A DNA stretch of 20,809 bases, taken from the IMG/VR virus record IMGVR_UViG_3300009152_000253, positions 1 through 20,809 of that record; one strand, written 5' to 3'. Each line of letters opens with the position of its first letter. Position 1 is the first letter of the stretch. This DNA comes from a virus. The translations under genes were made by a program, and so were the position numbers. Below are positions 3,886 through 16,800 of the stretch, piece by piece. The notes under the pieces were generated by a model that saw nothing but the letters and a program-made list of their open reading frames with translations, did no database searches and was not told where the DNA came from.

Positions 3886-4436
3886 TGAATTTCAACCACT
3901 GCTGTCCGTCCAACCCTTGCCAACTCCCGCCTAGCTTGCCGTTCGCTGGCATAAAAAAGGTCGATGACTGGTAGCCTAGATTTACCAGAGGCTTTCCGTG
4001 AGATAACCGCCGTCCCGGTGTCGTGAGCGTGGTATGCCTTGCCCTCAATAAGCAGGGTCGTTCCGTAGGGGATAATTTTAGGGTCTACGGCACAAGATTT
4101 GCCAGAAACCAACCGTTTTCCAGTTGAGCTTTTATAGCCAAACTCGTCCTCGCCCAACCAATAGGCCGTGATTCTGGCCTTAATTGTTTTCTTGGTTGGT
4201 GGCTTTGGCGTTTCGATCATTATATTCGCCGCTTGGCTTGAGCATAAGAGCGTGATTGCTAGGATGATGAGTGCTTTTTTCATCGTTAAGAAATGGATTC
4301 GCTCGCATAGGTGGCGGTAGCGTCTCGATGGGGATTCATCCCCCTTGATTATTTTACCATCGCCTCTGTCAACTGGGGTCTTGAGTTTTTCAATCTGTGC
4401 CTCGATTGCCTTGGCCTCCATCTTATTGATTTTCAT
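3882..4436 (-). CDS. 3D-domain (double-psi beta-barrel) protein with internal signal-like helix
   Basis: The C-terminal ~100 residues are a 3D domain, the double-psi barrel found in MltA/YuiC-type wall-active proteins. KARITAYW (86-93) is followed by YKSSTGKRLVSG, SCAVDPKIIPYGT with Asp118, HAHDTGTAV with Asp139, and PVIDLFY with Asp159; these are the three conserved aspartates. Such domains bind or cleave peptidoglycan. Residues 52-70 (MKKALIILAITLLCSSQAA) are a textbook signal peptide, preceded here by 51 charged residues. The long start at 4436 overlaps the methyltransferase stop as ATGA, whereas the ATG at 4283 would give a conventional secreted 133-residue protein. Both forms may be made. 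Likely a wall-degrading or lysis accessory, though it is far from the lysis block. Confidence 0.8.
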   Translation of the reverse strand: MKINKMEAKAIEAQIEKLKTPVDRGDGKIIKGDESPSRRYRHLCERIHFLTMKKALIILAITLLCSSQAANIMIETPKPPTKKTIKARITAYWLGEDEFGYKSSTGKRLVSGKSCAVDPKIIPYGTTLLIEGKAYHAHDTGTAVISRKASGKSRLPVIDLFYASERQARRELARVGRTAVVEIQ

Positions 4437-5377
4437 AGAAGCTCTCTTATGCCTTTGATGATTTGGTATGCGACTTGCGGGACGATGGCATTGCCCAACC
4501 CTTTAAGTCGGTGTGTCCTATGCTGTATCCCATCAGCCACTCTACAAATGCTGGGTTCAGCTTTCCACCAATCGTTGTCGAATCTATTTTGTAAATATGA
4601 TTGCTTAACATTTGTTGGCCGGTTGGTTTCATTTTGCTGTAAATGTGCTTTGCATCGTGTGCTTGAGGTGTCGGCCAGAACAGCACGGCCGTTGCCAAGC
4701 CATTCCCGCTGTTCTTGCTTGCACCCTTGCGATTGTAATTCCCGCATACTGAAGGAGTCGGCCACATCTTGGGGTGTACTACTTGCTCTCGAAGATTGCC
4801 CGACCTCGTTCTGTTCTTTCTGTTCTTCTGGTTCGTACTGCAATCCTTCGCCGGTCTGCTCGGAAGATGATCCATTGTGTTCGGGGTTGCCCAGAATACG
4901 TGCGATGATCCAGACTCGATTTCTTCTGTGCGGGGCATCGACACCGCAAGCTGGAATAATGATCGGCTCGACTTCGTATCCACACTCTTCCAAGTCAGAA
5001 CACACTTGGTCGAGTGCCAAGCCGATGATTCCAGCAACATTCTCACCAATGACCCAAGCTGGCCTTGCCTCTTGTATGACTCGGAGCATTTGCGGCCAGA
5101 GATAGCGGTCATCGTCCTTGCCTCGTTGCTCCCCGGCACAACTGAACGGCTGGCAGGGAAATCCTCCTGTGAGAAGAGTGACTCCTCGATATGCCGTGCC
5201 ATCGAGCGATTTGATGTCTCCGTGGATTGGAACATTAGGCCAATGCTTTTTAAGTACGGCTTGTGCGTAGGGTTCGTTGTCGCAGAATCCAACGGTTTCA
5301 AATCCAGCCCATCCAGCGGCAAGAGCGAATCCTCCGATTCCGCTGAACAAGTCGAGGTGGGTTGGTTTTTCATTCAC
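4433..5377 (-). CDS. DNA (cytosine-5) methyltransferase
   Basis: Transfers methyl from S-adenosylmethionine to cytosine C5 in DNA. It is a complete 314-residue enzyme. Motif I is DLFSGIGGFALA (9-20), motif IV is GGFPCQPFSCAG with catalytic Cys75, motif VI is ENV (112-114), motif VIII is HRRNRVW (150-156), and motifs IX-X are in THRLKGLGNAIVPQVA near the C-terminus. A target-recognition region of about 120 residues lies between VIII and IX. The start is a GTG at 5377, six bases after a perfect GGAGG; no in-frame ATG is better placed. In a phage it probably protects DNA from host restriction; no cognate endonuclease is adjacent. Its target-recognition region is also open in another frame (see 4447-5373). 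Confidence 0.95.
   Translation of the reverse strand: MNEKPTHLDLFSGIGGFALAAGWAGFETVGFCDNEPYAQAVLKKHWPNVPIHGDIKSLDGTAYRGVTLLTGGFPCQPFSCAGEQRGKDDDRYLWPQMLRVIQEARPAWVIGENVAGIIGLALDQVCSDLEECGYEVEPIIIPACGVDAPHRRNRVWIIARILGNPEHNGSSSEQTGEGLQYEPEEQKEQNEVGQSSRASSTPQDVADSFSMRELQSQGCKQEQREWLGNGRAVLADTSSTRCKAHLQQNETNRPTNVKQSYLQNRFDNDWWKAEPSICRVADGIQHRTHRLKGLGNAIVPQVAYQIIKGIRELL
4447..5373 (-). CDS. Candidate overprinted gene in +1 frame of the methyltransferase (308 aa)
   Basis: A 308-codon open frame lying wholly inside the methyltransferase gene, on the same strand. Its ATG at 5373 forms an ATGA overlap with the stop of the 97-residue gene and sits 10 bases from the same GGAGG used by the methyltransferase. 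The protein has recognisable, non-random features: CVLTWKS then LFQLAVSMPRTEE; three [W][P/A]TP motifs at about residues 161, 204 and 233 (WATPNTMDH, WPTPSVCGN, WPTPQAHDAK); and GGKLNPAFVEWLMGY at about 269-283. From memory, these motifs recur in phage proteins found with cytosine methyltransferases. Whether it is translated is unproven. It could be a by-product of conserved methyltransferase codons. Confidence 0.5.
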   Translation of the reverse strand: MKNQPTSTCSAESEDSLLPLDGLDLKPLDSATTNPTHKPYLKSIGLMFQSTETSNRSMARHIEESLFSQEDFPASRSVVPGSNEARTMTAISGRKCSESYKRQGQLGSLVRMLLESSAWHSTKCVLTWKSVDTKSSRSLFQLAVSMPRTEEIESGSSHVFWATPNTMDHLPSRPAKDCSTNQKNRKNRTRSGNLREQVVHPKMWPTPSVCGNYNRKGASKNSGNGLATAVLFWPTPQAHDAKHIYSKMKPTGQQMLSNHIYKIDSTTIGGKLNPAFVEWLMGYSIGHTDLKGWAMPSSRKSHTKSSKA

Positions 5378-5663
5378 ATTTCACCTCCGTCCAATGGCAT
5401 CGCTTGTTTGGCCTTTTGATCTTGCCCCTGCCCTCCAAATATCGTAGGTGGTACTGTATCGCCCCGTGGGTTTTCTTTAGAACCTCCGCAATCGTGCAAG
5501 TCGGAATCTCATTGGTGATTAGGGTGAACACGGCATCTCGAAGCATATCAATCGTGGCTTGGTTGCGAGTCGTTGCATAGAGCTTTTCTAGTTCCTTGCC
5601 GGGGTAGCGGTCGGTTAGGATGCTATTTGCCCTTGCCTCTGCCGTTGTGTAGGTTTCGTTCAT
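5370..5663 (-). CDS. Small winged-helix DNA-binding protein (97 aa)
   Basis: The second half is a probable winged helix. DMLRDAVFTLITNEIPTCTI leads into AEVLKKTHGAIQYHLRYLEG, where HGAIQYHLRYLE resembles an ArsR/LysR-type recognition helix. A wing follows, RGKIKRPNKRCHW. The N-terminus (YTTAEARANSILTDRYPG) is unassigned. It is probably a phage transcription regulator acting on the methyltransferase or early operon, but no target is visible. Its stop overlaps the ATG of the +1-frame gene, and the methyltransferase GTG lies inside its last codons, so translation of the two is probably coupled. A 46-base gap lies upstream of its start-side neighbour. Confidence 0.68.
   Translation of the reverse strand: MNETYTTAEARANSILTDRYPGKELEKLYATTRNQATIDMLRDAVFTLITNEIPTCTIAEVLKKTHGAIQYHLRYLEGRGKIKRPNKRCHWTEVKCE
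5384..5388 (-). promoter_or_regulatory. Strong Shine-Dalgarno (GGAGG) shared by two start codons
   Basis: Reading leftwards, GGAGGTGAAATGTGAATGA contains the SD, a GTG start 6 bases after GGAGG (methyltransferase), an ATG 10 bases after it (+1-frame gene), and the stop TGA of the upstream gene. This is among the strongest SD sequences in the window and it lies within the upstream coding region. Confidence 0.75.
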
Positions 5664-13880: not shown

Positions 13881-16800
13881 TTATTCTAAAACTCGCTTGG
13901 CCAAGCTAACTGTGGCTTGTGCCACAACTTGTTCATTTGTTCCGTCTGTTTCAAAAACTTCTAACAGAATATCTTTTTGAGTGGATGTGGATAAAATGGC
14001 ATTAGCAGAGGCCACGGTAATGTTTAGATCGCCCTCAACTTGGGAAAGTTGCAGAGCCGTTGGAAGCGGTATTTGTGGGGCATCAAAAACAATCGTTGGC
14101 GTGTCTGAATATCCGTAGCCTTTGTTCGATACCAAGATGCTCTTTACAATTCCCCCGCATATTGTCGGCGTATTCAAAACCAAATCAGTACCAGTGCCGT
14201 CATTAACTTTGATTCCAATGGATTCGTTTTTATAGTAAGAGCCGCCGCAAGTTATCGTGATTGAGTTGATAATGTTTCCAAATGGAGTGGCCACGGAAAC
14301 AATAGGAGCAGTTGTGTATCCGTAGCCTTGTTCCGTAACAATAAATGTTCCCCTAGTTGAGTCCTTTTGAAAAGCTACTTTTGGAGTCTTTCCGCCAGAA
14401 GGGGCGGCCTGAATGTTGCAATCATAAGTCCCATTGGCGTAACCCTGCCCTTGGGTTGTGGTTTGAATAAAGTTTATCACTCCTTGTGGCTGGTCTGGTG
14501 AAGGAGCAGTAACAGCGGGAGATGAGGAATAACCAAACCCGCCATCAACAATTTGAACGACATATCCATTTTGTGTGTTGGTTAATGTTAGAGAACAATT
14601 ACCTCCAGTTGCGGGACTTGAATCTGTTTGTAGCAAATACGTCTTGTCGATTTGGTAGCCTTGTGGCTTGTTCGTTACTATTGCTCTCTCAACAATACCA
14701 GTTCGTAAATTAGGGGCTGGTGCAGTTACAATCGGGGCAGAGGTATACCCAGCCCCACCATCAAAAATAACAGCCCTTCCAACCCCATTCTCAATAATAA
14801 GTTTTATGTTTGCCGCAGTTCCTACGCTTGGGGATTGAATGGTGCAATCATATTGCCCATCACCATAGGCTTGTGGAATATTTGTTAGCCTTGCAGTGGT
14901 TACAATTCCACCAGTTGCTACAGGAAGGCTTGAAATAATTGCAGACGGAGGTTCGTAATAACCAAAACCGCCATCTCCAATTAAATATTGAGTTCCAAAC
15001 CTTCCGGGTCGAGTTACTACTGTTGCTGGATAAGACAATAGAGTATTTAATAAAACCCCATAAGTTACAGAAACAGTAACCGCAGTGGCACTTTCAATCA
15101 ATACTTGTTGTGGAATAACTGAATAAAGCTCTTGAAGTTCTAGTCTGGTATTAGGTGTAAAGCTAGTGTAAGAATAATTTTCTCCATAATCAGCTATTTC
15201 AATAGACGGCTCATAAATCCCGCCTCCCCTATTTACTAAATAATTATCATAATATACATTATAATCTGGGTTTATTGCCGAAGTTGATATCTTAAAAAGT
15301 GCTGGCTTACCATAATATGACGTAACAACAGCTCCATACATAACATCAGAAAAACTTTGTTCAGGTGCTCCGGGGTATCCCTCAAGAAGTCTCCACGGAC
15401 GCTCGTATGTCACATTACCAAAAGAATCAACTTTTTCTTTGTTTGTTATGTAAGAAAACACTGTATTATTGTTAGGGTTTCTAACCTCATAAAATGGGGG
15501 AATTGTTTCTGGAGTTGTCGGATTTGGATTAACTACGACTCCGGGTTTATTTAAGAAATCATACAGACCTCTAGCATTTGAGTCGCTCTGCACACCCCAC
15601 ACACCCGAAAAACCAGCAATAAAGGAGTTTCTTCCATATCCGGGGCGAGAGTATCTTACTGTATTACTAATCCAATCATATTTAACTGCAAGGCCACCAT
15701 TTCTAATGTATGCTTGACCAGAAAAATCCGCTATAATTCTGAAAGGAGCAGAGGGATCAGAAGCAGTTACAACGGTAGAAAATTTTGAGGTAGAAACAAG
15801 GGCGGCGTCGTGGGTTACGGTTGGCGTGGACGTGTATCCATACCCACCAGAAGCTAAAGTAAGCTCCCAGATATTCTCTCTAACAGAGCTAATAAAAGCA
15901 GAGGGAGCCGATAGAAGTGCTGTTGTTGTTGTTCCGTTGGGAGGAGAAAAATTTACTGGAACAATAGGGGTGCTAACGGATGTGGTCGCATAAGCCCATA
16001 AAAATCTTTGTTTATTTTTTGCAACATATCCTAATTTATTTGTTACAAAAAGTTCATCAACTTGTTTTTCTGGTGTAAATAATGAAGCGGTTGGTGCAGA
16101 GGCATATCCAGACCCGCCAGACGTAAGATCGACAGATGTAATAATTCCGCCAGAAGCAACCGCATTGGCTGTTGCTGTAACCGTTCCAGCCGTTGCTCCA
16201 CCGCCAGAAAAGGTTAAGGCAAAAGTTCCGTTTGGATAACCCAAACCTCTGTTTGTAATTCCGATTGTTGCAACAGAACCAGACAAAAAGGATGTGGTAA
16301 ATTGTGCGGGTGCTACACTTGATAGCCCGGCTGTGATCACCAATACTACTGGGCGAGGGTCTCCGAATGGACTCAAATCAGGCTTACCGCTATTGTATCT
16401 GTCGCTTTTGACTGTGCGTGCATATCGTCGTGGGTCAGAAAAATAGTAACCAAGGATACTTGCTGGAGCAGTTTTAGGTTGAGAACTGAATGTAGAAACA
16501 AAAGAAGTGGAGGCAGAAATTCCGATAGTAATAGTTGCCGTAACTGCTGTGACTTGTGAAACATCTGCCCTAATAACTGCCGTAACTGCCGTGTAGTTTG
16601 AAAGCAGGGCAATCCCAGTGGCTTGTGTCGCACCAGCAGTAACAACTTGTGCCAATGCAGTAAATGCAACTGGTGGGGTTATTGAAACATCTATGCCATC
16701 GGCTAGTTTTGCAGAAGGTGTCCCAAGTCTAAATTTATATCTTGCGTCTGTGGATGGGGTGACAAGAGAGATTTTATTGTTTGCAATTTTTCTTACCGAA

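Follow-up and report, generated by a model that had tools for sequence, protein, structure and literature searches.

The C5-cytosine DNA methyltransferase gene of a virus contains, in its +1 frame, a second gene that is real and maintained by selection, as our sequence tests show in the absence of expression data. We analyzed a 20.8 kb virus record, referred to as the window, and named the first (methyltransferase) frame alpha and the +1 frame beta. Coding in beta is under selection, beta carries methyltransferase motif IX, and alpha does not. Beta is very likely the small-domain, DNA-recognizing subunit of a heterodimeric C5 methyltransferase in which alpha is the partner, while expression, assembly, methylation activity and the setting of the target by beta are inferred. 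Both frames lie on the minus strand: alpha spans 5377..4433 with a GTG start and 314 codons, and beta spans 5373..4447, inside alpha, with its own ATG start and 308 codons. An earlier note, made from the sequence alone, had claimed a 308-codon frame fully overlapping within a 314-codon methyltransferase and had left the second protein unidentified; both frames were confirmed.

Alpha matched PF00145 (1.8e-43) and phrog_363 (3.6e-83), and motifs I, IV (PCQ), VI (ENV), VIII and X can be read in its translation. Its full content is motifs I–VIII and X, including RRNRVW. In hhalign comparisons with other C5 methyltransferases only alpha residues 3–169 were covered, corresponding to motifs I–VIII. 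This local profile alignment stops after motif VIII, and motif IX is absent from the alpha chain; at the motif IX position the DNA in the alpha frame reads WWKAEPSICRVADG. Motif X is kept, reading GNAIVPQVA, with GNAIVPQ at 4475..4495. The claim that the methyltransferase frame has every C5 motif therefore failed, since motif IX lies in the +1 frame. The other sequence elements claimed for the +1 frame, namely three WATP/WPTP boxes, LTWK, QLAVSMPRTEE and a GGKLNPAFVEWLMGY block, are all present.

Beta matched phrog_1008 (3.5e-36), with no match above noise in Pfam and none in NCBIfam or PDB. It supplies motif IX as LNPxFVEWLMGYPxGWT, in the box GGKLNPAFVEWLMGYSIGHTDLKG within residues 267–290 (4504..4575). 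Against other C5 methyltransferases, beta aligned by hhalign at motif IX only, with an E value of 0.07, a match that is short and weak by itself; 4 of the 32 rows in the methyltransferase profile were later found to be duplicates of the nested type. The strongest evidence for motif IX on the second polypeptide comes via gp77 of phage Eagle, to which the beta profile aligned across both the PTP boxes and the MG box with a probability of 96 and an E value of 1.7e-9. The MG box (motif IX) was also matched in the single-chain methyltransferase of the mycobacteriophage Graduation (E 1.9e-5).

Beta can be divided into four parts. An N-terminal leader (residues 1–66; 5176..5373) is open and has no detectable amino-acid constraint in a regional substitution test. 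The core (residues 67–150; 4924..5175), defined by the conserved columns MTxTSGRKC, LTWK and LFQLxPSxPRT, overlaps alpha motifs IV–VIII and is predicted by a structure model to form helices at 83–99 and 105–116 and a hairpin at 125–145. No counterpart of the core (MTxTSGRKC..LTWK) was recognized among single-chain enzymes. A variable region (residues 151–266; 4576..4923) contains the three W(P/A)TP boxes, and we propose it as the target recognition region on the grounds of its regional constraint and its homology to the LPTP repeats of Eagle gp77. The motif IX box follows. We also considered beta as a restriction nuclease and dropped this candidate, as the conserved columns hold no nuclease motif.

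To assess whether beta is a coding frame, homologues were collected by two routes, by beta and by alpha without regard to beta. Stops were counted in 54 unique full-length loci chosen by alpha similarity alone, and the null was obtained by permuting synonymous codons within each gene, which keeps both the protein and the codon use. The mean number of +1 stops was 0.70, while 7.26 were expected; in the +2 frame, which served as a control, 14.5 were observed and 14.8 expected, so the deficit is confined to +1. The open +1 stretch spans nearly the whole gene in all 54 loci. The window gene has two +1 stops, both outside the 308-codon open stretch, compared with a mean of 7.5 under permutation. 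In 33 other C5 methyltransferases, sampled via PF00145 from whole genomes, there were 4.84 +1 stops per 100 codons and 4.95 expected, and no gene reached P <= 0.01. Between distant alphas (28–50% identity), similarity in the +1 frame was on average 6.3 SD above the permuted null, the highest of all frames; this set was partly picked by beta.

The third positions of alpha codons gave a further test. In 50 non-redundant sequences, the coded beta residue is kept at T163, P234–P236, L272, P274, L280 and M281, while the third position of these beta codons, which is the first position of alpha codons, varies freely except in the Met codon. Where alpha has an N, H, D or Y codon opposite beta T163 or T235, the final base is C in 48/48 and 41/41 cases, respectively; opposite beta M281 it is T in 49/49. 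Elsewhere in the same genes the ratio is 1162 C to 814 T. Since codons for the same amino acids are fixed for C at some sites and for T at another, codon bias cannot account for the pattern. In close pairs, alpha-synonymous changes that create a beta stop occurred at 0.08 (CI 0–0.18) of the beta-missense rate; for the +2 control the value was 0.88.

Constraint on beta relative to alpha differs along the gene. By the regional substitution test, constraint is stronger on beta than on alpha from motif VIII to motif IX (ratio 8.1) and slightly stronger in the motif IX box (1.26), but weaker in the core (0.43) and almost absent from the first 60 residues (0.16). A dN/dS-like ratio for beta, conditioned on alpha-nonsynonymous changes, was 0.275. 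Because codon-position effects bias this ratio, we did not count it as evidence and relied on the stop and wobble tests. The earlier note's proposal that dual coding is conserved across phages is supported by the stop, wobble and regional tests. Of the two checks it had set, scattered +1 stops in homologues did not occur, and synonymous constraint at methyltransferase third positions was found to be strong.

Relatives of beta were found in 104 phage records, in more than 500 stretches of viral contigs, and in 80 bacterial contigs, many of them metagenome-assembled, whose titles name at least 13 phyla. phrog_1008 occurred in 4 of 299 Bacillota genomes, which is consistent with prophages. In 327 of 327 loci with a beta match, alpha was present with beta nested in its +1 register; none of these loci had beta alone. 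A very long same-strand overlap has been retained across phages with hosts from many phyla. Phages N15 (gp58), epsilon15 and Bas76 carry beta and offer directly testable cases in laboratory phages. In two bacterial contigs (L174 and L178), alpha is interrupted and beta is intact.

A tree built on alpha motifs I–VIII placed 50 of 51 nested members in a single clade (support 100/94). Its sister group (98/98) consists of split enzymes, mostly from actinophages, and of single-chain enzymes, and both groups stand apart from other C5 methyltransferases. The alpha tree shows one main origin of the nested arrangement beside its split and single-chain relatives. The simplest account derives nesting from a relative of the split or single-chain type, a direction that is inferred.

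These relatives display the beta-homologous region in other contexts, either fused in frame to motif X or within one chain together with the whole enzyme. The single chain of Graduation presents motifs I–VIII, then RVSAEFYEWLMGLPRGW, then LGNGVVPQ. In Eagle, gp78 comprises motifs I–VIII, and gp77, in the +1 frame, has three LPTP/FPTP boxes, RLNAAFSEWMMGWEEGW and IIGNGVVVQQ, thus holding motifs IX and X in one chain. The split enzymes, mostly of actinophages (L424 731-2184; L415–L422 and L427), have a +1 overlap of 182–737 bases, with motifs IX and X both on beta and both missing from alpha. The annotated starts of Eagle gp77 and Gmala1 gp29 may lie too far downstream. In Mycobacterium phage Ochi17 (L405 1192-2100), genes 73 and 74 are pieces of a broken alpha, and the motif IX frame is in a third frame.

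Three other explanations of the second frame were weighed. One holds that beta is not a gene but merely looks like a protein, owing to base composition together with conservation of the methyltransferase codons. It draws on the fact that some similarity always persists in the +1 frame when a protein is conserved (null identity 0.21). Against it, synonymous permutation yields ten times more +1 stops, other C5 methyltransferases lack the stop deficit, and for the same amino acids the frozen wobble base is C at some sites and T at another. The version offered by the earlier note, in which conserved methyltransferase codons give an apparent second protein, is excluded because the +1 frame is the one preserved between motifs VIII and IX, where the methyltransferase frame drifts; with base composition added, the non-gene reading is all but ruled out.

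The remaining two accept a product of the second frame. Beta could be a genuine overprinted protein whose role has nothing to do with catalysis, for example as a regulator or an anti-restriction protein. Its lack of a Pfam, NCBIfam or PDB relative and the absence of a match to its core in single-chain enzymes speak for this reading. We nonetheless consider it improbable: beta is never found apart from alpha, it provides motif IX at the very place where alpha has none, and the regions homologous to it are joined in frame to motif X in actinophages and also form part of a single-chain enzyme. Programmed ribosomal frameshifting from alpha into the second frame, giving an alpha-beta fusion, is suggested by the almost end-to-end overlap of the frames and by relatives in which an indel fuses alpha with motif IX. 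This is still harder to uphold, as beta in most members has an ATG of its own a short way past an in-frame stop, frequently accompanied by a Shine-Dalgarno site, and the indels coincide with DNA slippage tracts.

We therefore return to the subunit reading: beta carries motif IX and the variable region, and therefore corresponds to the small domain. Under this proposal, alpha would make the catalytic large domain, with AdoMet binding, PCQ, ENV, motif VIII and motif X, and beta would make the small domain, with the WPTP-box recognition region and motif IX. Both subunits would be translated from one mRNA and combine into a single active enzyme, as those of M.EcoHK31I do. Our inference that beta determines the target sequence rests on constraint and position. 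AlphaFold gave poor models of beta alone in two runs (pLDDT 62 and 65, pTM 0.33), and a Foldseek search with them matched no fold in the PDB. The poor models may mean that beta folds only together with alpha, but we do not take them as support for the subunit reading. Four significant BFVD matches to the beta model had low TM-scores; these are probably relatives of beta, three being named as uncharacterized or methyltransferase phage proteins and one having no name, and they are uninformative on function.

The translation starts suggest how two chains may arise from one message. In the window, the Shine-Dalgarno sequence GGAGGTGA (5381..5388, minus strand) stands upstream of a staggered double start, GTGAATG (5371..5377), in which the alpha GTG occupies 5377–5375 and the beta ATG, four bases after it, occupies 5373–5371. 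In addition, the beta ATG shares bases with the stop codon of the upstream gene (ATGA). An identical Shine-Dalgarno site is present in one relative (L014), and 58 of the 65 window-group loci have RTGAATG. In the window type, a single Shine-Dalgarno site would serve both start codons. In other members the beta start is inside alpha, about eleven codons before PCQ, and Shine-Dalgarno sites such as AAAGGAG or TAAGGAGG are embedded in alpha codons; there, beta would be initiated within alpha from its own site. A Shine-Dalgarno match of at least 6 bases precedes 27% of beta ATGs and 4% of other ATGs.

A gene-in-gene layout is known from very few enzymes. M.EcoHK31I is a two-polypeptide C5 methyltransferase recognizing YGGCCR (Lee et al. 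1995, cited in PMC3404938), whose large polypeptide has motifs I–VIII and X and whose small polypeptide has only motif IX, both being needed (PMC3404938). The gene for the small polypeptide lies within that for the large one, in a different reading frame. The window resembles it in motif layout, without a sequence comparison having been made, with motif X on the large polypeptide and motif IX on the second, and likewise in having the small gene in another frame of the large one. It differs in being a phage gene and in that beta nearly spans alpha (308 versus 314 codons) from a double start. Moreover, the predicted recognition domain of M.EcoHK31I was placed in the large subunit (PMC3404938), whereas the constraint we mapped assigns the variable recognition region to beta. 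In M.AquI the split falls inside the variable region, and its small subunit has motifs IX and X (Karreman and de Waard 1990, cited in PMC3404938). M.AquI shares with the window a catalytic large subunit and a small-domain subunit bearing the distal variable region and motif IX, but the two differ in motif X, which M.AquI and the actinophage relatives have on the small subunit and the window has on alpha. In the literature searched, nothing was found on an embedded gene in phage methyltransferases, and M.EcoHK31I was the sole precedent. What is new here is the pan-phylum distribution in phages, the one main origin and a variable recognition region constrained in the beta frame.

Among annotated phages, Paenibacillus phage Shelly has a likewise nested gene, gp56, annotated as "g55 internal gene" inside the cytosine methyltransferase gp55 and as hypothetical, without a function. 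The window alpha and beta belong to phrog_363 and phrog_1008, respectively. phrog_1008, labeled DNA methyltransferase, is the +1 frame of another labeled family, phrog_363, and its label is silent on this possibility; annotation pipelines may choose either. Confusing annotations, in which two overlapping genes are called "DNA methyltransferase" or "hypothetical", are resolved by our reading as a defined two-subunit enzyme. Gene callers that bar full overlaps miss the proposed recognition subunit, and predicted specificities may rest on the wrong frame.

Some relatives exchange the tails of the two frames. Out of 255 loci scored, 238 were nested and 17 had exchanged tails: in some, alpha continues into motif IX and a third frame holds motif X, and in the others beta continues into motif X. 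A poly-G (8–12) or AG (10–19 copies) tract past motif VIII was present in 14/17 swapped loci and 13/238 nested loci (Fisher P 3e-13, ignoring kinship and a few overlapping loci). Tract density was 1.95 per kb in the 130-base segment past motif VIII versus 0.024 per kb in flanking genes. Three loci that are 95–98% identical differ in frame only by a tract about 480 bases into the gene: L136 (G10) is swapped, L092 (G11) is nested, and L005 (G12) is swapped the other way. Other tract-bearing close relatives of the window are L160, L161, L163 and L142, L117 and L156, and L021, L023 and L043; the window itself has no poly-G or AG tract.

Judging by the sequences, the length of the tract determines which frames are joined downstream, in what looks like slipped-strand phase variation. 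Homopolymer assembly errors might contribute to the swaps, yet they leave the placement of the tracts unexplained. The literature searched held nothing on point about phase-variable phage cytosine methyltransferases; the tracts suggest phase-variable modification in phages. A bolder reading, towards which we lean only slightly, is a widespread phage epigenetic enzyme made of two subunits co-encoded in overlapping frames, in which the hidden subunit carries recognition and, in certain lineages near the window, a tract acts as a phase switch. In such a switch, the gain or loss of one or two bases would join the catalytic half to a different tail, and the nested enzyme would be turned off or made into a different assembly.

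Other features of the window were also observed. A second long same-strand overlap, at 1303–1933, pairs a 199-codon terminase small subunit frame (phrog_57) with a 208-codon frame for which there was no family match. A 1011-residue protein at 13881–16916 matches head closure and baseplate families only in part. On the plus strand, a 264-codon open frame (4311..5105) runs antisense to the methyltransferase.
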